A stretch of DNA of 64,000 bases from Glutamicibacter protophormiae (GTDB lineage: Bacteria > Actinomycetota > Actinomycetes > Actinomycetales > Micrococcaceae). The stretch lies in assembly GCF_014647495.1 (NCBI RefSeq), contig NZ_BMPH01000011.1:62001-126000 (forward strand). The letters run 5' to 3'. Each line of letters starts with the position of its first letter. Positions within the stretch are counted from its first letter, which is position 1. The notes under the pieces were generated by a model. The model saw only the letters and a program-made list of their open reading frames with translations, had not been told where the DNA came from and ran no database searches. A program made the position numbers and the translations under genes. This document shows positions 9,925 through 62,157 of this stretch, piece by piece.

Positions 9925-12900
9925 GTGTTCTTTTTGAACAACAAATTCGTATTCTCGGCCAGCGACCTGTCGATCGCCGTCGATTGCCAGTACCAGTCGC
10001 TCTTCGTGCTGGACGTCGCGCTCAAGCGCCGCGAGAAGCCGGAGGCTGTCACCGACGAGATGCTGCACCGCACCGCCCTGCTCGGTGACGAGCATGAGCA
10101 TCGGGTCCTGGAGCAGCTGGTGCGGACCTACGGCGAATACGATCCGCAGACCGGCACCGGGGTCAAGCAGTTCACCGACCGGCCGCAGAAGACCGAGGAA
10201 TCCCTGCGCCAGGCCCACGAACAGACGATGGCCGTGCTGCGCAGCGGCGCCGACGTGATTTTCCAGGCAACCTTCTTCGACGGGTCCTTCGTGGGCTTTG
10301 CCGACTTCCTGGTCCGCCAGGACGACGGGTCCTGGGCGGTCTGGGATACGAAGCTGGCCCGCCATGCCCGCGTGAGCGCCCTGCTCCAGGTCGCGGCCTA
10401 CGCGGACCAGATGATCGCCGAAGGCATCGAGGTCAACCGCCATACGACCCTGGTGCTGGGCGACGGCACCCATTCAACCCATCGCATCGACGAGATCCTG
10501 CCGGTCTTCCGCGCGCAGCGCGAGCGCTTCCTGGCCAACGTGCACTCGCATACCGCTTCCGACGCACCGGTGGCCTGGGATTCTGACCGGCTGCGCCTGT
10601 GCGGACGGTGCGCCCTGTGCGCCGAGCAGGTTGAACAGACCCGGGACGTCCTGCTGGTTGCAGGGATGTCCATGGCGCAGCGCGAAAAGCTCCGCCGCCA
10701 GGGCATTGTCACCATCGACCAGCTCGCCGCGCTGGAACCGGAGTGGAATACCGCGCTGGGACGCGCAGTGGAACAGGCAAGGATGCAGGTCGGCCTCGAC
10801 CCCTTGGCGCAGTCCATCCAGGGCGTCTCCTACCGGGTGAAGTCCTCGCAGACCATCACCAAGCTTCCCAACCCGGACCAGGGCGACATCTTCTTCGACT
10901 TCGAGGGCGACCCGCTCTACCAGGAGCCGCTGGATGGCTCCTGGGGCCTGGAGTACCTGTTCGGCGTGATCGAGAACGACATCGGAGAACCGGTGTTCCG
11001 CCCCTTCTGGGCCCATAGCCGGGCCGGCGAGCGCCAGGCCTTCCTGGAATTCATCGAGTACGTCGAGGCACGCCGCCGCCGCTTCCCGAACATGAAGATC
11101 TACCACTACGCGGCCTATGAGAAGAGCGCCCTGCGCAAGCTCTCCCAGGTGCATATCGCCGGGGAAGACGAAGTGGACCAGTGGCTGCGCGAGAACCTGC
11201 TGATCGACCTGTACGACACCGTGCGCAATTCGCTGGTCGTTTCCACCCGCTCCTACTCGATCAAGAAGCTCGAGCCGCTGTACATGGGCGAGCACCTGCG
11301 TTCGGGGGACGTCACCGATGCCGGCGCCTCCGTGGTCGCCTACGCCCAGTACATGGAGGCCCGCGATGCCGGAGACGACGCGAAGGCGCGGCACGTCCTG
11401 GAGTCGATCGCGGACTACAACGAGTACGACTGCCTGTCGACCCTGCGCCTGCGGGACTGGCTGCTGTCCGTCGGCGATTTCCAGCCGCACACGCTGCTTC
11501 CGGAATCCGCAGTCCCAGAAGCCGTCGAGGAGTACGAGCCCTCCCCCGAGGAGCTCCGCCTGCAGGACTACCTGGCGGCGCTGCCCGAGGGGGAAGCGCT
11601 CAGCGCCGACGACCGCGCCATTGCGATGGTCGCCGCCGCGACCGGCTACAACCGGCGCGAGAAGAAGCAGTACTGGTGGGACCACTTCGACCGGCTCAGC
11701 AAGCCCATGGACCAGTGGTCGGACGTGCGCGGGGTCTTCATGGTGGATTCGGCGCAGGTGCTCGAAGACTGGCACAAGCCCACACCGCGCGCACGGACCG
11801 TGACGCGTATTTCCAGACTGCACGGCACCCTGGCCGAAGGTTCGCTGCTCTCCCCCGGCTCCGGGGTGTTCGCCATGTTCGCAGCTCCCCTGCCCGAGGG
11901 CATGGAGGTCGACGCCGAGGCGCTGCGCGGCGGCGCGTTCAATGCAACGGTGGTGGAGGTCGGCGACGGCTGGATCACCATCGCCGAGAAGACCAGCGGC
12001 AAGGTCCCCGAATACGGGGCCTTCCCGGTCGCGCTCACCCCTGACAAACCCATAGCCACCAAGAGCATCGACGAGTCCCTGGCGCACATCGCCATCCAGG
12101 TGGGAGCCACTGTGCCGGTGCTGCCGCAGCAGCCGGGCATCGACATCCTGCGTCGCATCCCGCCGCGCCTGAAGACCCTGGAGGCGCCGGTCCAGCCGGT
12201 CGTGGTGGACGGCAGCGCACAGGTATACCAGGCGGTGGCGCAGACGCTGCGCGACCTGGACAACTCCTATTTGGCGGTGCAGGGACCTCCGGGCACGGGC
12301 AAGACCTTTGTCGCCTCCCATGTGATCCGCGAACTGGTGGAAGCCGGCTGGAAGGTCGGCGTCGTGGCGCAGTCCCATGCGGTGGTGGAGAACGTGCTGC
12401 ACAAGGCCATCGCCGCCGGCGTGGACCCGGAGGCCGTGGCCAAGGAGGTCAAGTACAAGGACCCGGTGCCATGGCACGGCACCACCAAGGAGGACCTGTC
12501 CAGCGTGCTGTCGGGTTCGGGCGGCGCGCTGATCGGCGGCACCGCCTGGACCATGACCGGTTCCAAGGTGCCCGCGGGCAGCCTGGACCTGCTGGTCATC
12601 GACGAAGCCGGGCAGTTTTCGCTGGCCAACACCCTGGCGGTGTCCAGGGCGGCCCGCAACCTGCTGCTGCTCGGGGATCCGCAGCAGCTGCCGCAGGTGA
12701 CCCAGGGGTCGCATCCGCAGCCGGTGGACGAGTCGGCGCTCGGCTGGCTGTCCAACGGCCGGCCGGTGCTGCCCGGGGAGCTGGGCTACTTCCTGGCCGC
12801 CTCGTGGCGCATGCACCCGGCCCTGTGCGCCAAGGTGTCCGCGTTGAGCTACGACCACCAGCTGTTCTCGGCGCAGGCCGCCGGGCAGCGCAGCCTGGCC

Positions 12901-13383
12901 GGCAGCGCCGCCGGGGTGGAAACCCGGCTGGTGGAGCACCGCGGCAACACGGTCAGCAGCGCGGAGGAAGCCGGGGAAATCGTCCGGCTGGTGCGCGAAC
13001 ATCTGGGATCGGAGTGGACCCCGGCGCAGGATGCCGGCGCCCGCAGGCTGGCCGCCGAAGACATCCTGGTGGTCGCGGCCTACAACGCGCAGGTCAACAT
13101 GGTGCGCGAGGTCCTGGAATCCGAGGGGCTCGCAGAGGTGCGGGTCGGCACCGTGGACAAGTTCCAGGGGCAGGAAGCCCCGGTGGTGCTGGTGACCTTG
13201 GCCTGTTCCAGCGCGGATGACGCGGCCCGCGGCATCGACTTCCTGCTCAACCGCAACCGCATCAACGTGGCTATTTCCCGGGGACAGTGGAAGGCGGTCA
13301 TCGTGCGCAGCGACCGGCTGACCGACTACCTGCCGTCCAGCCCGGCCGCCCTGTCCCAGCTGGGCGCCTTCATGGGGCTGTAG
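9925..13383 (+). CDS. TM0106-type RecB-like nuclease fused to a superfamily 1 helicase
   Basis: The 1152-residue protein starts at GTG. The N-terminal ~290 residues look like a RecB/Cas4-type nuclease: GFADFLVRQDDGSWAVWDTK near residues 120-140 has the spaced acidic residues and the Lys of the PD-(D/E)XK core. CGRCALCAEQ near residue 226 gives Cys residues that could hold an iron-sulfur cluster. Next comes a predicted RNase-H-like region (IFFDFEGDPLYQEP near residue 322). The C-terminal helicase has Walker A GPPGTGKT (~786), LVIDEAGQ (~889), GDPQQLPQV and VDKFQGQEAPVV, as in Dna2/Upf1-like enzymes. A role in DNA end processing or repair is likely; defence is possible. A double hairpin follows. 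Confidence 0.88.
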   Translation: MFFLNNKFVFSASDLSIAVDCQYQSLFVLDVALKRREKPEAVTDEMLHRTALLGDEHEHRVLEQLVRTYGEYDPQTGTGVKQFTDRPQKTEESLRQAHEQTMAVLRSGADVIFQATFFDGSFVGFADFLVRQDDGSWAVWDTKLARHARVSALLQVAAYADQMIAEGIEVNRHTTLVLGDGTHSTHRIDEILPVFRAQRERFLANVHSHTASDAPVAWDSDRLRLCGRCALCAEQVEQTRDVLLVAGMSMAQREKLRRQGIVTIDQLAALEPEWNTALGRAVEQARMQVGLDPLAQSIQGVSYRVKSSQTITKLPNPDQGDIFFDFEGDPLYQEPLDGSWGLEYLFGVIENDIGEPVFRPFWAHSRAGERQAFLEFIEYVEARRRRFPNMKIYHYAAYEKSALRKLSQVHIAGEDEVDQWLRENLLIDLYDTVRNSLVVSTRSYSIKKLEPLYMGEHLRSGDVTDAGASVVAYAQYMEARDAGDDAKARHVLESIADYNEYDCLSTLRLRDWLLSVGDFQPHTLLPESAVPEAVEEYEPSPEELRLQDYLAALPEGEALSADDRAIAMVAAATGYNRREKKQYWWDHFDRLSKPMDQWSDVRGVFMVDSAQVLEDWHKPTPRARTVTRISRLHGTLAEGSLLSPGSGVFAMFAAPLPEGMEVDAEALRGGAFNATVVEVGDGWITIAEKTSGKVPEYGAFPVALTPDKPIATKSIDESLAHIAIQVGATVPVLPQQPGIDILRRIPPRLKTLEAPVQPVVVDGSAQVYQAVAQTLRDLDNSYLAVQGPPGTGKTFVASHVIRELVEAGWKVGVVAQSHAVVENVLHKAIAAGVDPEAVAKEVKYKDPVPWHGTTKEDLSSVLSGSGGALIGGTAWTMTGSKVPAGSLDLLVIDEAGQFSLANTLAVSRAARNLLLLGDPQQLPQVTQGSHPQPVDESALGWLSNGRPVLPGELGYFLAASWRMHPALCAKVSALSYDHQLFSAQAAGQRSLAGSAAGVETRLVEHRGNTVSSAEEAGEIVRLVREHLGSEWTPAQDAGARRLAAEDILVVAAYNAQVNMVREVLESEGLAEVRVGTVDKFQGQEAPVVLVTLACSSADDAARGIDFLLNRNRINVAISRGQWKAVIVRSDRLTDYLPSSPAALSQLGAFMGL

Positions 13384-14914: not shown

Positions 14915-16375
14915 ATGCAGCCCTCGCACCGCGCGAATAGCCTGTGGATTCAGTCCCAGCAGTTCAGAAGCTCGGCGGCGTACCGGCTCTTAACGGCCCA
15001 GCCCTGGGCGGTCGCCTTCATCCGCGCGGAGTTCACCGCCGACCGCCCGCGCATCGCCCTGGAACTTTTCCACGCCTCGCTGGATTCCTTCCTGAAAACC
15101 GCCCGCCGCGGCGACGAGCAGATCCCGCAGTCCTACAGTGCCCAGGATTTCGCCGAAACATGGGTCAAGCAGGGACTGCTGGCCCGGCCGCTGATCGACG
15201 GACGCTTCGTCTACGAGCCCAGCGCCCAGACCCTGCGCACCCTGCGTTTCCTGGCGGATTTCTCCACCGACGACTCGCACCTGAACTCCTCGCGCCTGAA
15301 TACCCTGCTGTCCTCGCTGGAGTCCCTGGCCCACGAGACCGACCCGGATCCCGAGGCCCGCATCCGCGCGCTGGAATCCCAGATCGCCCTGCGCCAGGCG
15401 CAGATCGACCAGCTGCGCGCCGGCACCGATCCGGCGGTGCTTTCGCGCACCACCGCGCTCTCCGCGGCGCGCTCCGTGCTGGATCTGGCCGCGAGCCTCC
15501 CGGCGGACTTCCGCCGCATGCGCGACGGCGTGCAGGAGATGCTGCATTCGCTGCGCGAGGGAATCCTCGATGCCTCCACCGCCAAGGGCGTAGCGGTGGG
15601 CCAGGTGCTGGAAGCCGACCGGCAGCTGCGCTCGACCGCCGAGGGCGAGACCTTCCGCGGCTTCACCGAGTTCCTGAACTCCCCCGATGCCCAGCAGCGT
15701 TTCCGTGCGGCGCTGGCCGAGGTGCTGGAGCGCGACTTCGTGGACGACCTGGACACCCCCGAACGCCAGATCCTCACCAACCTGCTGCGCGAGCTGCGCC
15801 GCCAGGCCGCCGAGGTGCACACCTCCTACGGCAAGCTCTCCGAATCCCTGCACGCCTTCGTGCAGTCCGAGGCCTACAAGCAGGCCGAGCTGCTGCGCCG
15901 GGCAGTGCGCGAGGCGGAGGCTGCGATCAGCAAGTCCGCGGCCCTGAAGCCGCGCAGCGGGCTGGCCCCGCTGGAACTGTTCGCCCCGCAGTTCGTCACC
16001 CTGCACGGGCTGGGCATCTACGACCCGTCCGAGCACGTGGCCCCGCCGCCGCTGGCCCACGCGCCGGAGTTCAGCGCCGAGGACATCGTGCGCACCCCCA
16101 GCACGCCGGAGGCGGACATGCCCGCGCTGCGCTGCGCCATCGCGCAACGGCTGCGCCGCGCCCCGGACGCCCCGGTGCCGCTGGATGAGATGTTCGCCGC
16201 GCTGCCGGCCGAGCACCAGCACTTGAACACCATCCGCGCGCTGATCGAAATCGGGCGCACCAACGGCGAAACCCTGCACGAGGGCGAACTTCTGTGCATT
16301 GAATTCGCCCAGCTCGACGGTTCCCCGCGCACCGCCTACCTGCCCGCCCTGAGCTTCACGAAGGAGCCGCTATGA
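14915..16375 (+). CDS. jetA: JetA-like subunit (DUF3375) of a Wadjet/MksBEF condensin-like system
   Basis: The 486-residue protein is a DUF3375 protein, the kleisin-like JetA/MksF subunit. The N-terminal part (residues ~15-110, LTAQPWAVAFIRAEFTADRP to VKQGLLARPLIDG) has the winged-helix character of the family. The middle (~130-330) is largely helical and heptad-rich, with SLESLAHETDPDPEARIRAL and REAEAAISKSAAL. The C-terminal region (~380-480) looks like a second winged helix that contacts the ATPase head. The ATG at 14915 has AAGGA six bases upstream. Its stop overlaps the jetB start in an ATGA quadruplet, so the subunits are made together. In Wadjet, JetABC extrudes DNA loops and JetD cuts small circular DNA. 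Confidence 0.9.
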   Translation: MQPSHRANSLWIQSQQFRSSAAYRLLTAQPWAVAFIRAEFTADRPRIALELFHASLDSFLKTARRGDEQIPQSYSAQDFAETWVKQGLLARPLIDGRFVYEPSAQTLRTLRFLADFSTDDSHLNSSRLNTLLSSLESLAHETDPDPEARIRALESQIALRQAQIDQLRAGTDPAVLSRTTALSAARSVLDLAASLPADFRRMRDGVQEMLHSLREGILDASTAKGVAVGQVLEADRQLRSTAEGETFRGFTEFLNSPDAQQRFRAALAEVLERDFVDDLDTPERQILTNLLRELRRQAAEVHTSYGKLSESLHAFVQSEAYKQAELLRRAVREAEAAISKSAALKPRSGLAPLELFAPQFVTLHGLGIYDPSEHVAPPPLAHAPEFSAEDIVRTPSTPEADMPALRCAIAQRLRRAPDAPVPLDEMFAALPAEHQHLNTIRALIEIGRTNGETLHEGELLCIEFAQLDGSPRTAYLPALSFTKEPL

Positions 16376-17064
16376 CCTACACCGACTCATATGCCGCACC
16401 GATCACCGATCCCCTGTTCGACGGGGACGCCGGCAGCTTCCCGCTCCCGCTGCGCCAGCTGCTGGTGCGGCTGCTGCGCGGCCCGTACCTGGACGGCTCC
16501 ATGGACGCCGCGGCCTGGCAGCTGCTGCTGGATTCGCAGGACACGCTCACCGCGTACTTCTCGGAAATCTTCTTGGCCCTGAGCCTGGACATGGACCGCA
16601 AGATCGCCATGCTGGCCCCGGTGGACATCGAGCAGGCGCACACCGCGCCGATCGCCCCGCGCCGCCCGCTCAAGCGCGACGAGACCCTGCTGGCGCTGCG
16701 CCTGCGCCTGTTGCTGGAGCAGCAGTCCGGCACCGGGGCCGACGCGGTGATATCCCGCGCCGGCATGCACGAGATCCTGGCCGAGCACCGCGCCGCCGCC
16801 GACCGCGACGACAAGCGCTTCGCCGAGTCCTGCGACGCGGCCATCGCCCGACTGGGCTCGCTGAGGCTGCTGACCAATACCGAGCTGGCCGACGAATTCC
16901 GCATTTCCCCGGCGCTGGCCATGGCCCTGCCGCTGTCCTCCATCCAGGACATCCCGCGCTACATCGCGGCCATCGACGCCAATGAGAGCGTGCTGAACCT
17001 CTCCGGGGCGGAGCCCGACGAGGCCGACGCATCCGAACAGACCGACGCACTGGTGCAGGAGTAG
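16372..17064 (+). CDS. jetB: JetB-like subunit (DUF4194)
   Basis: The 230-residue protein is a DUF4194 protein, the KITE-type JetB/MksE subunit that binds JetA and the neck of JetC. It is helical with paired winged-helix features: RQLLVRLLRGPYLDGSMDAA near residues 27-46, then LALRLRLLLEQQSG near residues 108-121 and AIARLGSLRLLTN near residues 160-172. The acidic C-terminal tail (DEADASEQTDALVQE) is probably disordered. The start codon overlaps the jetA stop (ATGA), and only three bases separate its stop from jetC. The size and position between DUF3375 and SMC-like genes are those of Wadjet type I operons. Confidence 0.9.
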   Translation: MTYTDSYAAPITDPLFDGDAGSFPLPLRQLLVRLLRGPYLDGSMDAAAWQLLLDSQDTLTAYFSEIFLALSLDMDRKIAMLAPVDIEQAHTAPIAPRRPLKRDETLLALRLRLLLEQQSGTGADAVISRAGMHEILAEHRAAADRDDKRFAESCDAAIARLGSLRLLTNTELADEFRISPALAMALPLSSIQDIPRYIAAIDANESVLNLSGAEPDEADASEQTDALVQE

Positions 17065-17067
17065 CCG

Positions 17068-20000
17068 ATGAGCATTGAAATGACGCTGCCGCTGGGCGGC
17101 GAGATCAACCCCGGCCAGCACCGGCTCTCGCGTGTCCAGCTGGTGAACTGGGGAACCTTCCACGGGCTGCACGACCTGGCGGTGGACCGCGCCGGAACGC
17201 TGGTCACCGGCCACCCCGGCGTGGGCAAGTCCACGCTCTTCGACGCCATGGGCCACGTGTTCTTCGCCAGCCCGCGGCTGAACGAGTCCGCCAACGACGC
17301 GGCCACCCGAGAGGACCGCCGCACCACCTATTCCTACATGCGCGGACGCAAGTTCAAGACCAGCGCCGGCACCGTGTTCCAGCGCCCCGGGGCCACCTGG
17401 AGCGCCGTGCTGCTCAGCTACCAGGACGGCATGGGCAACACCGTCAGCGCCGGCGCGGTCTTCGACCTGCCGGATGCCGGGCTGGAAGGCCAGGTGTCCA
17501 AGCACTACCTCTTGTGCGAGGGCGGACTGGACATCGCGCAGCTGGAGAACCACGGCCCGCGCCGCTTCACTGTCTCCTCGCTGTCCAAGACGCTGGCCCC
17601 GACCGAAGCCTTCGACACCCACAAGGCGTTCATCGACCGGCTGCGCCGCCGTCTGGGCGTGGAAAGCGACAAGGCCTTCGCCCTGCTGCGCACCCTGCAG
17701 AACGGCAAGGGCCTGGCCAAGGGGGTGAACCAGTTCTTCCGCCACGAAGTGCTGGAGGAACCGGCCACGCTCAAGGCCGCCGCCGCCGCGGTGGAGGACT
17801 TCGCCCACCTGCGCGGCATCTACCGGCAGCTGGACACCGCCCGCGCCCAGCGCGACGTGCTGGCCGCCGTGCCGGAGCAGGACCGCGCCTACCGATCGCT
17901 GGCCGGGCAGATCGATGGCACCCGCCAGCTGCTGGAGACCGAGCTGGCGCAGCTCGAAACGCAGGTGCGCCAGCTGGTGCTGCGCAACGACCTGGCGGCG
18001 CACCGCGCCGAGCATGCGGAACTCACGGCCAAGCAGGCCGCGCTGGGCGAACGCAAGGCCAAGCTCGATGACCAGCTGCAGTCGCTGGAGGCCGCGCATG
18101 ATGCGGCCGGATCTGCCTCGTTGATGCTGCTGGAGCGCGAGGCGGACTCCGCCCGCAAGGCGCTGAGCGAGAAGGAACGCGTGCTGCGCGCCCTGCAGGA
18201 GCAGGCCGACCAGGCCGGGCTGGCCTTCGAATTCAGCGCCACCGGGCTGGACGAGCTGCGCGCCAATGCAGCCCGCACCCTGCAGCAGCTGGACTCCATC
18301 ACCAAGGACGCGCAGACCGTGGAATACGAGGCCATGGCCTCGCTGGTCAACCTGCGCAAGCGCGCCGACACCCTGGCCGAGCAGATCCGCTCCTACCAGC
18401 GCCGCAGCACCAACATCGACGACCGCTCGGTCGCGGCCCGGCGCGCCATCGCCTCGGCCTGCTCGCTGCGCGAGGAGCAGCTGCCCTTCGCCGGCGAGCT
18501 GATGGACGTCTCCGCCGACTGCGCCATGTGGCGCCTGGCCGCGGAAAAGGCGCTGCATTCGGTGGCCCGCACGATCCTGGTGCCCGGCGAGTTCCTGGCC
18601 CAGGTCACCCACGCCATCGACAAGCTCGACGGGCTGGGCCGGGTGCGTTGGGCGGACATCTCGCTGGCCCCGCGCGAGGCGGAAGCCGGACCGGCGGACC
18701 TGGTCACCAAGCTGGACTTCGCCCCGGGCGAGGCTGGCGCCTGGCTGCGCGCCAAGATCACCGCTGACTACCCGCTGGCCTGCGTGGAGAACGACGCGGC
18801 CATGCACATCCACCCCAAGGCCATTACCCCGTCCGGCACCATCAAGACCGGCACCGGCATCTTCGAGCGCGACACCCGCACCCTGCCGGCGTCCGAGTAC
18901 CTGCTGGGCTTCACCAACGAAGCGAAGATCTCCGAGCTGCAGTCCAAGGCCGCGCGCCTTGAGATCAAGGTGCAGGACGCCAAGAACGCCGCGGATGACC
19001 GCAGCGCGGCCAAAACCAAGGTGCTGGCCAAGGCGCAGCTGCTCGGTGCGCTGATCAACGACGAACGCAGCTTCGCGCAGCTGGATGCCGCCCCCGCGCT
19101 GGAAGCCCTGCGCCGCAGCGAGCAGAAGCTGGGCGACGCGCTGGCGCTTTCCGGCGATTCCTCCCGGGTCCGCACGCAGATCGAGGCCGCCAAGGCCGAG
19201 GCCGAGCAGCTGGTCGGGGACCTGGCGCTGGTCCGCTCCCGCGTCGGCGAACTGGGCCTGCAGATCGAGCGAGCCGAGAAGGTCATGGCTTCCGGCCCGG
19301 CGGACGACGGCGACTGGCTGGAGCGGGTCCCGGCGGCGCTGCGCGGCCATGAGCTGCTCGGCGGGTTGCTGGAAACCGTTAGCACCGGCAACTGCCCCGC
19401 CTCCGAGGAGATTTCCAACGCCTTTGCCGAGGTCAAGCTGCAGCTGGCGAGCCAGCTGAGCGAGCTGACCGCGCGGCGCCAGGAACTCGGCGGCGCGCTG
19501 AGCGAGACCTTCCGCCGTTTCGCCCGCGAATTCGGCGGCTCCCATGCCCAGACCCACGGCACCTCCCCCGAGGCCGCGGAGCACTATGCCCGGCTGCACC
19601 AGCAGATCGTCGCCGACGGCCTGCCGCACCACGAGGCGCAGTTCCGCGAATACTTCGCCAACCGCTCCTACGAGCGCTTCAGCGACCTGCTGCAGCTGCT
19701 CGACGAGGAACGCCGGATGATTTCCGAGCGCATCAAGCCGCTGAACCAGATCCTGGGCGAGGTCGCCTTCGAGCACGGCTCGCTGCTGCGTCTGGAGGTG
19801 GAAAGCTCCATCCCGGTTGAGGCCGCCGCCTTCCGCAAGGACCTGAAGAACGCCCTGCAGGACGCCTACACCACCAAGGACGAGGGCACGCTGGCCAGCT
19901 CCTACCAGGCGCTGGAGGCACTGGTCTCGGCGCTGAGCGAGCCAGGCCTGTCGGCCTGGCGTTCCACGGTGCTGGACGTGCGCCAGCACGTTCTCATCAG

Positions 20001-20391
20001 CTGCAATGAGCACAAGCCGAACGGCGAGGTGGAGACCGGGCTGGAGCCGGGCACCCTCTCCGGCGGCGAGGGGCAGCGCTTCACCTCGTTCATCATGGGC
20101 GCCGCGCTGGCCTACCAGCTGGGGTTCGCCACCGCCGGGTTCACGTCCTTCGGCACGGTGATGATCGACGAGGCGTTCATCCAGGCCAACTCCGAATATG
20201 CCGCGGCGGGCATCCGCGCGCTGCAGGAGTTCGGTTTCCATCTGGTGCTGGCGGCCCCGGAGGACAAGATCGATTTGAGCCGCCATCTGGGCTCCATCAC
20301 CGACATCATCAAGCACCCGGGATCCAGCGTCTCGGGCTTCGTCACCACCGGCCGTTCCCCGGCCATGGCCACCACCATCACGCTGCGCTAG
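17068..20391 (+). CDS. jetC: JetC-like SMC ATPase (MksB/SbcC-like)
   Basis: The 1107-residue protein is the SMC-like ATPase of the system. Walker A (GHPGVGKST, residues ~48-56) is followed by long coiled coils (~280-460 and ~610-760) flanking a central hinge-like region around residues 480-600. The C-terminal half-head carries the ABC signature LSGGEGQ (~998-1004), and Walker B with catalytic Glu lies in TVMIDEAF (~1030-1037). The final [20 protein letters not shown] is typical of JetC/MksB. ATP-driven DNA loop extrusion is the known family activity. All ATPase motifs are intact, so the protein should be active. A perfect 14-bp hairpin follows the stop, and no jetD gene comes after it. Confidence 0.92.
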
Positions 20392-20410: not shown

Positions 20411-20456
20411 GCCCGCAGGACGCTGAGCCACGCATCCGGCGGAGCGTCCTGCGGGC
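20411..20456 (+). terminator. Perfect hairpin ending the jetABC-like operon
   Basis: A 14-bp perfect stem (20411-20424 with 20443-20456) begins 19 bases after the jetC stop and is followed by TCTT. It closes the operon immediately after jetC and lies before the convergent DUF6176-like gene, leaving no room for a fourth subunit. Confidence 0.8.
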
Positions 20457-20477: not shown

Positions 20478-20822
20478 CTACTGCATCTGTTCCAGGATGC
20501 GCTGCGGGATCATGCTCACCCGCGTGGCCAGCGTCTGCGGGGTGAACTCGGGATCGATGCATTCGTCCCAGTACTCCAGGTGCTTGCGGTCGATCCAGTG
20601 CACCGAGTCGCGGACCTCGGTGCCGCCGCGGCCCTGGATGCTGTACCAGTACAGGTATTGCGCCCCGTCCAGCGTCTCGCTGAAAATCGTCTCGACGTAC
20701 ATCCGCTCCCCCTCCAGGGTTTCCAGAACCGCTGGCATATTGGAGTTCAGGAACTGCAGCCATTGGTCGACTCGTTCGGTTTTGCCTGGTTTCACGCGAA
20801 AACGCATCAGCTCGATGTTCAT
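20478..20822 (-). CDS. Small DUF6176-like protein
   Basis: The 114-residue soluble protein begins MNIELMRFRVKPGKTERVDQ and contains LEGERMYVETIFSE, YLYWYSIQGRGG and HWIDRKHLEYWDECID. The pattern (beta strand, helix, strand, Trp/Tyr-rich) resembles ferredoxin-like dimeric alpha/beta-barrel proteins grouped as DUF6176. Function is unknown. It is transcribed towards jetC from its own region near 20823-20900 and is separated from jetC by the operon terminator, so it is not a Wadjet subunit. Its size and fold do not resemble JetD. Confidence 0.75.
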   Translation of the reverse strand: MNIELMRFRVKPGKTERVDQWLQFLNSNMPAVLETLEGERMYVETIFSETLDGAQYLYWYSIQGRGGTEVRDSVHWIDRKHLEYWDECIDPEFTPQTLATRVSMIPQRILEQMQ

Positions 20823-59775: not shown

Positions 59776-62157
59776 CTATTCGACGATTTCGAGGGGAGCG
59801 TAACGAAGCAGGAGCCGTTTCTCGGAGTCCGGAAATTGGACTTTCGCCACGGTTTTATCCCCGGCGCCCTCCAACGCGATGACAGTGCCCAAGCCAAAGC
59901 TCGAATGCTTGACCGACTGCCCGACCTCCGGGATGACGATTTCCTTGTTCTGGACCACGCGCTGCTTTGAAACTGGCGCGGCGTTGTGCCCGCGGGCCGG
60001 GGTGTTCGCCATCGACGAACCCGACCCCCAGTGGCTGCCTCGCGCGTAGCGGCTTGTGGCGAAGTTGACCGCTCCCGACCCGAAGGACAGCCCCGAGCCG
60101 AAGGAGGATCCCTCGCGTTTCCAGTCGATCAGCTGGGCTGGGACCTCTTCCAGGAATTGGCTGGCCGGGTTGTACTGCGCCTGCCCCCAGAGGCTGCGCT
60201 GCTCGGCGCGCGTGAGGTAGAGACGCTCGCGGGCACGGGTCAGCCCGACATAGGCGAGGCGTCGCTCTTCGGCCAGTTCCTTTTCATCGGTCATGGATCG
60301 CTGATGAGGGAAGACGCCGTGCTCCATGCCGGTCAGGAACACCACGGGGAATTCCAGCCCCTTGGCCGTATGCAGGGTCATCAACGTCACCATGCCTTCG
60401 CGCGCCGCCATGGCGGCGCCCTCCTCGTCGCTCGGGGCTTCGGGGATCTGGTCCGCGTCGGCCACCAGCGCGACCCGCTCCAGGAAGCCGGCCAGACCGC
60501 CCTCGGGTTCGTCGTTCACGTAGTCGCGTACCACGGCGACCAATTCTGCGAGGTTCTCGACCCTGGACTCGTCCTGCGGGTCGCTGGAGGACCGAAGGGT
60601 CTCCAAGTACCCGGTCTGTTCCAGCACTGCCTCCAGCGCCTCGGCCGGGCCCGAGCCTTCGGCCACCGTCTGGAGGTCGTCCATGAGCGCCACGAATGCC
60701 GCAGTCATCTTGATGCCGCGGGTACCCAGACCCGGAGCCTCGTCCGAGCGGCGCAGCGCATCCATGAAGGAGATGCGCTCGCGTTCCGCCAACGCGGCGA
60801 CCGCACCCTCTGCACGATCCCCGATGCCGCGCTTGGGTTCATTGAGGATGCGCCGGACATTGATGTCGTCCTCCGGATTCACCAGGGCGCGCAGGTAGGC
60901 CAATGCGTCCTTGATTTCCTTGCGGTCGTAGAACCGGGTCCCACCGACCACCCGGTATTTCAGGTCGACGCGCATCAGCTGCTCTTCGAGCGCGCGCGAC
61001 TGGGCATTGGTGCGATAGAAGATGGCTATGTCGCCGGGACGCACATCTTCGTCGTCATTCAGCCGCAGGATCTCCTCGGCGATCCACCGGGCCTCGTCGG
61101 ACTCCGACTCCCCCACGTAGCCCACGATCTGTTCGCCGTCGCCGCTGGCGGTCCACAGCCGCTTGTCATTGCGGTCCGGGTTGAGCTTGATAACCTCGTT
61201 GGCAGCGGTCAGGATGTTTTGCGTGGAACGGTAGTTCTGCTCCAGCTTGATCGTCGCCGCGTTCGGGTAGTCCTTCTCGAATTCGATGATGTTCCGGATA
61301 TCGGCGCCGCGGAAGGCGTAGATGGACTGGTCGGAGTCGCCGACCACGGTCAGTTCTCCCGGAGGGGTCTTTCCGTCGGGGCCGGTGAGTTCGCGAACCA
61401 GCGAGTACTGGGCGTGGTTCGTATCCTGGTATTCGTCGATCAGCACATGGCGGAACCGGCGGCGGTAGTTGTCCGCCACCGCCGGGAACGCCCGGAACAT
61501 GTACACGACCTGGCCGATCAGGTCGTCGAAGTCCAGCGCATTGGCTGCGCGCAACCGCTGGGTGTACCCACGGTAGACCTCGGAAACGGCCCGGGCGAAC
61601 GGATCATTCGTGTTGATGGTCGCCGAGTAGTCCTCGTCGTCAATCAGTTCGTTCTTGAGCGAGGAGATCTTGTGCGCGATGGCCTTGGGAGTGAAGCGCT
61701 TCGGATCAATGTCCAATCCCTTGGAAACAAGGGTGATCAGGCGCAGCGAGTCTGCCGAGTCGTAGATCGAGAAGTTCGACTTCAAGCCGATGGTGGCGGC
61801 CTCGCGGCGGAGGATGCGCACGCACGACGAGTGGAACGTGGAGATCCACATCTTTTTCGCATGGTCCTCGCCAATGAGCTCGGCGGCACGTTCGCGCATT
61901 TCGGCCGCGGCCTTGTTGGTAAAGGTAATGGCCAGGATTTCGTGCGGCCGGGAGCGCCCCGTGGCCAACAGATACGCGATGCGATGGGTCAAAACGCGGG
62001 TCTTGCCCGAGCCGGCACCGGCGATGATCAGCAGCGGGCCTCCTGCGTAGCGCACGGCCTCTTCCTGCTGCGGGTTCATGCCTACAAGAAGTTCGTCCGC
62101 GGTTGGCAAAGCCTGAGGTGTGGGTTCAGGAGCGAAGTCATCAAAAAGGAAATCCAT
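59776..62157 (-). CDS. pcrA: ATP-dependent DNA helicase PcrA (UvrD/Rep family)
   Basis: The 793-residue superfamily 1A helicase has the Q motif (GMNPQQEEAVRYAGGPLLII), Walker A AGAGSGKT (residues ~46-53), motif Ia ITFTNKAAAEMRERA, motif II VLIDEYQDTNHAQY (~240-253), motif III VGDSDQSIYAFRGAD, motif IV KLEQNYRSTQNIL, motif V VTLMTLHTAKGLEFPVVF and motif VI YVGLTRARERLYLTRA. The C-terminus carries the Tudor-like domain that contacts RNA polymerase (HSSFGLGTVIALEGAGDK, ~745-762). It unwinds DNA 3' to 5' in nucleotide-excision repair and in replication-transcription conflicts. Start ATG at 62157; divergent from the membrane-protein gene. Confidence 0.97.
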   Translation of the reverse strand: MDFLFDDFAPEPTPQALPTADELLVGMNPQQEEAVRYAGGPLLIIAGAGSGKTRVLTHRIAYLLATGRSRPHEILAITFTNKAAAEMRERAAELIGEDHAKKMWISTFHSSCVRILRREAATIGLKSNFSIYDSADSLRLITLVSKGLDIDPKRFTPKAIAHKISSLKNELIDDEDYSATINTNDPFARAVSEVYRGYTQRLRAANALDFDDLIGQVVYMFRAFPAVADNYRRRFRHVLIDEYQDTNHAQYSLVRELTGPDGKTPPGELTVVGDSDQSIYAFRGADIRNIIEFEKDYPNAATIKLEQNYRSTQNILTAANEVIKLNPDRNDKRLWTASGDGEQIVGYVGESESDEARWIAEEILRLNDDEDVRPGDIAIFYRTNAQSRALEEQLMRVDLKYRVVGGTRFYDRKEIKDALAYLRALVNPEDDINVRRILNEPKRGIGDRAEGAVAALAERERISFMDALRRSDEAPGLGTRGIKMTAAFVALMDDLQTVAEGSGPAEALEAVLEQTGYLETLRSSSDPQDESRVENLAELVAVVRDYVNDEPEGGLAGFLERVALVADADQIPEAPSDEEGAAMAAREGMVTLMTLHTAKGLEFPVVFLTGMEHGVFPHQRSMTDEKELAEERRLAYVGLTRARERLYLTRAEQRSLWGQAQYNPASQFLEEVPAQLIDWKREGSSFGSGLSFGSGAVNFATSRYARGSHWGSGSSMANTPARGHNAAPVSKQRVVQNKEIVIPEVGQSVKHSSFGLGTVIALEGAGDKTVAKVQFPDSEKRLLLRYAPLEIVE

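Follow-up and report, generated by a model that had tools for sequence, protein, structure and literature searches.

A jetABC operon without jetD is conserved across Glutamicibacter and may encode a nuclease-independent relative of the Wadjet plasmid-defence motor

Results and Discussion

A jetABC operon of Wadjet type I that lacks jetD

A 64,000-nucleotide stretch of the Glutamicibacter protophormiae genome (the window: positions 62,001 to 126,000 of contig NZ_BMPH01000011.1, assembly GCF_014647495.1) carries a three-gene operon, jetABC, of the Wadjet type I family, which lacks the nuclease gene jetD and is inherited as a core gene set within the genus. JetABC is regarded as the sensor of such systems and JetD as the effector (extracts of PMC10586767). 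Gene content and conservation suggest, with a probability that we place slightly above even, that the product of the operon is a former plasmid-defence structural maintenance of chromosomes (SMC) motor that has been retained to organise DNA independently of a nuclease, in the manner of MksBEF of Pseudomonas. The operon and its 3' boundary have the following features, in window coordinates.

jetA, 14915-16375, + strand: kleisin of the DUF3375 family, 486 amino acids (PF11855, E = 5e-106, 355.8 bits; PADLOC JetA1, 757 bits)
jetB, 16372-17064, + strand: KITE subunit of the DUF4194 family, 230 amino acids (PF13835, E = 6e-34, 117.6 bits)
JetB N-terminal short motif, 16414-16434, + strand: LFDGDAG, found as a match to the pattern [LIM][FYW]xGDxG
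jetC, 17068-20391, + strand: SMC-like ATPase, 1107 amino acids (PF13555, PF13558; PADLOC JetC1, 1065 bits)
JetC Walker A, 17209-17235, + strand: residues 48-56
JetC ATP-binding cassette (ABC) signature, 20056-20079, + strand: LSGGEGQR, residues 997-1004
JetC Walker B region, 20155-20190, + strand: residues 1030-1041, containing TVMIDEAF and its catalytic DE pair
Perfect 14-bp hairpin, arms 20411-20424 and 20443-20456, no strand assigned: separating jetC from the convergent DUF6176 gene
DUF6176 gene, 20478-20822, convergent to jetC: the next gene after the hairpin

All three genes, as named by Pfam and PADLOC, are open and intact; jetA and jetB share an ATGA overlap, and three bases separate jetB from jetC. 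A first-pass annotation, made by a model from the letters alone, had described three coupled genes with intact ATPase motifs, and its coordinates, domains and motifs were borne out. Three of the features by which a Wadjet type I system is recognised were found, namely a DUF3375 JetA, a DUF4194 JetB and a JetC with intact motifs; the fourth, a JetD in the operon, was not, as no jetD follows jetC in the window. JetA matched DUF3375 alone in the Pfam search, and JetB also matched MksE (PF21980, 30.9 bits, cut-off 27), with a higher score for DUF4194. The hairpin begins 19 bases past the jetC stop codon and folds with a z-score of -3.7; it has no T run, and the number of terminator-like sites found was zero. 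Its position, and that of an unrelated convergent gene behind it, had been given correctly in the first-pass annotation, and it likely marks the end of the operon, with no jetD past it.

The window proteins are homologous to solved Wadjet subunits from Escherichia coli and Pseudomonas aeruginosa, nearly over the whole length in the case of JetC. The homologues are 8dk2 for JetC (E = 1.7e-62), 8dk1 and 8as8 for JetA, and 8as8 for JetB. In an AlphaFold model of JetA only the ends were predicted well (mean predicted local distance difference test score 65, predicted template modelling (TM) score 0.30); its best Foldseek match was the E. coli JetA chain 8as8_E (E = 2.3e-13), with low global TM-scores, and we take the model as support for the fold, no more.

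The operon lacks jetD throughout its clade

When 245 genomes of the Micrococcaceae were searched with the window JetA, 115 gave a match of at least 39% identity, one copy in each, and the other matches listed were at 30% or below. The former group, which we call the window-type clade, spans 11 genus codes, including Paeniglutamicibacter, Zhihengliuella, Zafaria, Arthrobacter and one record filed as Kocuria polaris. In 0 of the 115 genomes did a jetD adjoin the window-type operon; the nearest JetD on the same contig lies 19 kb off, beside the second JetA gene of one Glutamicibacter relative (G008). What the first-pass annotation had said of the window, that the operon is without jetD, holds for the clade as well, and its suggested counter-case, relatives with jetD directly after jetC and a recent deletion in the window together with decay of jetABC, was not encountered among the 115. 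In tblastn searches (E = 1e-3), 21 JetD queries gave no match in the JetD-less loci, among them 42 fetched and 31 named loci of the clade, and all 21 matched each of 21 JetD-bearing loci. We rejected the idea that JetD is hidden by a weak model, since two independent JetD domain models agree within the genus and the tblastn separation was all-or-none. We also looked for a fourth gene in place of jetD in 29 window-type loci from 11 genera, which differ in their genomic surroundings, and no family other than those of jetABC occurred in more than six genera; the gene picking for this tally was rough and, among the 29 loci, overlooked jetA three times and jetB five times.

Conservation within the genus was examined in 18 genomes, the source genome (G000) and 17 relatives, some of which are filed as Arthrobacter sp. 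A window-type DUF3375 gene was present in 18/18, and the same neighbours accompanied it in all 17 relatives fetched: a RecB-like nuclease/helicase, a polysaccharide deacetylase, jetABC, an ABC transporter and a cation transporter. In five assemblies (G004, G009, G014, G015 and G017) jetABC lies 0.17-0.19 of the contig from base 1; the numbering of these five appears to start near the origin, judging by recF-like Smc-model matches at about 3 kb. The Smc model itself matched in 18/18 genomes, and JetABC is therefore an extra complex and not an Smc substitute. The match was above the cut-off in 17 genomes; in G004 it was divided between two parts of the gene that lie in different frames (G004:C1:1574430-1577976), through either a real break or a sequencing error.

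The median ratio of nonsynonymous to synonymous differences per site (pN/pS) in the genus was 0.15 for jetA, 0.22 for jetB and 0.17 for jetC, below three of the four neighbouring genes (0.23, 0.30, 0.40 and 0.13). The median pS of about 0.67 amounts to saturation and makes the genus-wide ratios rough (closest pair, 0.13-0.15). The operon is clearly under purifying selection, and the frames of jetA, jetB and jetC were open and full length in all 42 clade loci fetched. One could envisage a decaying Wadjet remnant without function, given that the cutting subunit is missing, but the full-length frames, the low pN/pS in the genus and the invariant ATPase residues described below run against decay, which the selection data contradict and which we find hardly credible. 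The first-pass annotation had argued against decay from the intact ATPase of the window, and the motifs proved to be intact in each of the 42 JetC proteins.

The JetD encoded elsewhere in the genome belongs to a second operon

The window is part of contig C11 of the 3.83 Mb assembly. The JetD_C domain (PF09983) gave a single match in the whole genome, on contig C5, where a gene for a JetD with both JetD domains occupies the fourth place in a distinct, complete jetABCD operon (L004:8806-15516). JetA, JetB and JetC are 28-29% identical between the two operons; because the identity is this low, neither operon is a recent duplicate of the other. A cobW-type gene lies directly 3' of the contig C5 jetD, and a Fic/DOC-domain gene lies farther along.

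Having a complete jetD in the source genome, one may ask whether that JetD serves both JetABC complexes in trans. A JetD match was found in 38 of the 115 clade genomes, fragments included, and in 24 of the 130 non-clade genomes (62/245 in all, fragments counted; Fisher p = 0.012, uncorrected for kinship), which would favour such an arrangement. However, 77 of the 115 had no JetD match of any kind, and the two operons are divergent. In the genus, intact JetD_C was confined to 4/18 genomes (G000, G005, G008 and G014), each time beside a second DUF3375 gene, and the other JetD domain, DUF3322 (PF11795), occurred in the same four; the JetD_C search gave no match in 13 of the 17 relatives and fragments only in G016. 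We therefore consider sharing of JetD very unlikely. As for the suggestion in the first-pass annotation that JetD is encoded elsewhere, one JetD does exist in the genome, but it sits in its own jetABCD, and because of this and of the 77 carriers devoid of a match, a JetD encoded elsewhere is not the partner of the window-type complex in general. Nor does jetD track the operon, the co-occurrence that the same annotation had named as evidence against its proposal.

Within the genus, complete jetABCD operons occur sporadically and represent more than one type, those of G000, G005 and G008 falling on different branches of the tree. The accessory Wadjet genes also appear labile: the second jetC of G014 is in two frames (L071:8121-11499), and the JetD fragments of G016 are at L089:7779-8187.

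JetD-less operons occur in several lineages

A search of 394 genomes of the class with the window JetC gave 64 with a match at E of 1e-20 or below. The window type occurred only in three family members of this set (G000, G026 and G077); the others were at 24-36% identity, the 36% match being a short fragment. JetD_C gave no match in 33 of the 64 genomes. At the level of loci, an adjoining JetD was seen for 30 of 71 JetC loci and not for the remaining 41, with at most two candidates scored per genome, about 1.5 kb read after jetC and, in a few cases, a locus that was split or lay at the end of a contig; the JetD-less share is not a census, because the query was the window JetC, which favours its relatives. 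Across 21 other JetD-less loci, the genes that follow jetC show no likeness to one another on inspection by eye, with Pfam run on the one in L190. In that JetD-less operon, which comes from another family, the end of jetC is overlapped by a gene (L190:10071-11246) for an SbcD-like nuclease with Metallophos and SbcD_C domains, a possible case of nuclease exchange.

We built a JetC tree of 72 rows, of which 31 are of the window type. These 31, all of them JetD-less, formed one clade on a long branch with a support of 100. The distribution of JetD requires six changes on this tree, and branches with good support force at least five of them. Another tree, of 44 rows and with two JetD-bearing proteobacterial plasmid JetC proteins as outgroup, again gave one window-type clade (14 rows, support 100) and six changes, four of them forced; its root is uncertain because the two outgroup rows did not group. 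Each tree came from a quick search, and the larger one brings long branches together. JetD-less loci were also found as close sisters of JetD-bearing ones (L086/L175; L161 and L164 against L163), which suggests recent losses of JetD there; the pairs L086/L175 and L161/L163 offer good material for the study of recent loss. Loss of JetD from JetD-bearing ancestors is our preferred reading of the trees, not a proven one.

JetC carries clade-specific changes and JetB a motif found also outside the clade

In Walker A, residues G48, G51, G53, K54, S55 and T56 were invariant in 42/42 window-type JetC proteins, as were the catalytic residues of the signature and Walker B; D1034 and E1035 of Walker B were also present in 41/41 other JetC proteins. 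Against this background, the clade has its own changes at otherwise conserved positions: P67A, L105Q, L1005F and loss of an EP pair at 1071-1072. Residue 1005, directly after the signature, is F in 42/42 window-type proteins and L in 41/41 others. The EP loss is not simply a consequence of JetD loss, because the pair is kept both in JetD-bearing and in other JetD-less rows.

The JetB motif [LIM][FYW]xGDxG was present in 42/42 window-type proteins, in 15 of the 20 JetB proteins that tblastn found in other JetD-less loci and in 8 of 14 JetD-bearing ones (10/14 if D is allowed for G). A motif common to JetD-bearing and JetD-less JetB is weak evidence either way. Work by Deep in 2022 is said to have shown that an IFDR motif of JetB contacts JetD. 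We could not equate LFxGDxG with the published motif, as the profile aligns to the solved JetB only from profile position 30-34.

A RecB-like gene upstream of the operon

The gene upstream of jetABC in all 17 fetched relatives, on the same strand, is the RecB-like one listed above. In the window it has these properties.

RecB-like TM0106-type nuclease / superfamily 1 (SF1) helicase gene, 9925-13383, + strand: TIGR03491, 192 bits (cut-off 97); PF13482, PF13087

In principle, such a protein could have replaced JetD, with JetABC handing small circular DNA to another nuclease, for example this one, docked through the JetB motif. The conserved upstream position would fit this arrangement, as would the retention of the JetB motif throughout the clade. 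Beyond the 17 relatives the gene was seen upstream on the same strand in several Micrococcaceae genera, at 29 of 55 loci; these include at least ten from Glutamicibacter once more, and some genomes are counted twice. The shortest gaps to jetABC are 87 bases (L221) and 170 bases (L225, a plasmid record), and in L225 the upstream gene is annotated as a bifunctional RecB family nuclease/helicase. On the other hand, none was found in the remaining 26 loci within the 1.6-9 kb upstream that was read (two of them, L081 and L128, show the gene farther off in the longer stretches L215 and L209), and in the window 1.5 kb and one opposite-strand gene separate the pair. The family may moreover be a common housekeeping one, as we presume, which would also count against nuclease exchange. 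We judge the exchange improbable, and the adjacency may reflect either old synteny or a real partnership.

A nuclease-independent organiser as the preferred explanation

We propose that JetABC is a complete SMC motor of the type I Wadjet family, composed of the kleisin JetA, the KITE subunit JetB and the ATPase JetC, the partnership of which with a presumed earlier JetD would have been lost in an ancestor within the Micrococcaceae. Vertical inheritance would since have maintained it in Glutamicibacter as part of the core chromosomal genes. Homology predicts an ATP-driven extruder of DNA loops; most likely the complex still binds DNA, extrudes or bridges loops with ATP, and serves chromosome or replicon maintenance beside Smc-ScpAB instead of plasmid cutting. 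The chromosomal role is suggested by core conservation and by the published MksBEF precedent: MksBEF of P. aeruginosa likely arose by JetD loss and contributes to chromosome organisation (extracts of PMC10586767). Among the options offered in the first-pass annotation, a nuclease-free loop extruder is the best supported, because the operon is syntenic in 18/18 genomes, is under purifying selection and has an adjoining jetD in none of the 115 carriers, although its function is predicted from sequence.

Several observations weigh against this proposal. The clade is present in just 47% of the family sample, and the operon is therefore dispensable outside some genera. Relatives of jetC (52% and 37% identity) are also found in Arthrobacter, on two replicons of 754 kb and 1.35 Mb that are recorded as plasmids. 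If the JetB motif were the JetD-binding one, another partner may bind there. Finally, in Corynebacterium glutamicum, the one Actinobacterium covered by the data consulted, the full MksBEFG does not influence how the chromosome folds and has plasmids as its target (extracts of PMC7083940). We nevertheless prefer nuclease-independent organisation, because the C. glutamicum complex keeps its nuclease, which binds the kleisin MksF (extracts of PMC10123090). The two plasmid records are L225 (NZ_CP012477.1) and H2 (NZ_AP024648.1), of which L225 shows jetABC without jetD.

Another way to act without cutting would be for JetABC to compact, silence or mis-segregate small circular replicons, so that defence against plasmids continued. 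The sensing motor has kept its ATPase motifs intact, and loss of MksB in C. glutamicum raises the level of low-copy plasmids (extracts of PMC7083940), both of which fit such a role. Core syntenic inheritance is, however, unlike that of a defence gene, full jetABCD being sporadic in the genus (4/18), and suppression of plasmid transformation in Bacillus subtilis needs all four Wadjet subunits (extracts of PMC10586767). We regard this alternative as unlikely. In a broader form of the organiser proposal, which we put forward tentatively as quite possible, actinomycetes would repeatedly have disarmed a plasmid-cutting SMC machine, making JetABC a recurrent extra condensin, of which the Glutamicibacter core complex, with its own JetC head signature, would use the JetB motif to contact a different partner.

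The operon shares the JetA, JetB and JetC families and their order with Wadjet type I (JetABCD, or MksBEFG in C. glutamicum), but differs from it in lacking JetD, genome-wide in most carriers, in belonging to the syntenic core of the genus and not to its accessory genes, and in the clade-specific changes in JetC. P. aeruginosa MksBEF is likewise a Muk-like SMC complex without a nuclease subunit that exists beside Smc-ScpAB. Unlike MksBEF, the window operon has a kleisin and a KITE subunit of the DUF3375/DUF4194 type I family, and its nuclease loss for this reason appears to be independent, as judged from family assignment. Smc-ScpAB has the same kleisin-KITE-SMC architecture, yet smc is a separate gene in the same genomes and JetC scored 41.5 bits against an Smc-model cut-off of 567. 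For Paenarthrobacter lasiusi S21, a member of a related genus, a PADLOC table lists a JetA-JetB-JetC set beside a full JetA1-D1 (PMC11719660, Table 6); we liken it to the window operon by gene content alone, and in the extracts of that paper the set is counted as a defence system and its missing JetD is not discussed. Our literature search, from the coverage of which subscription journals were mostly absent, found no study that analyses a type I clade devoid of JetD, and JetD-less wording only in extracts of PMC10586767.

If the proposal is correct, Glutamicibacter offers a natural system in which an immune motor that senses DNA circles has parted from its cutter and been kept by the host, and the proposed route by which a defence system (Wadjet) turned into a chromosome organiser (MksBEF, MukBEF) becomes directly testable in a soil genus. 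Wadjet has been reported in 42% of Actinobacteria (survey in extracts of PMC10482375); JetABC matches in defence-gene surveys should then not be counted as plasmid-cutting in the absence of JetD.

Composition and 3' flank of the operon

The GC content of the operon, 0.696, is somewhat high compared with its flanks (0.653-0.657). A recent horizontal arrival of jetABC was considered and is not supported, as synteny is kept in the genus. A DUF6176 gene, convergent with jetC in the window, was seen near jetABC in nine of the 17 relatives. The stretches 3' of jetC fold well in 17/18 genus genomes (-32 to -58 kcal/mol, without comparison to shuffled sequences) and less so in L056 (-21 kcal/mol). Across these loci (L052-L058 and L060-L069), the position of the fold-prone stretch is kept in most members of the genus and its sequence turns over.

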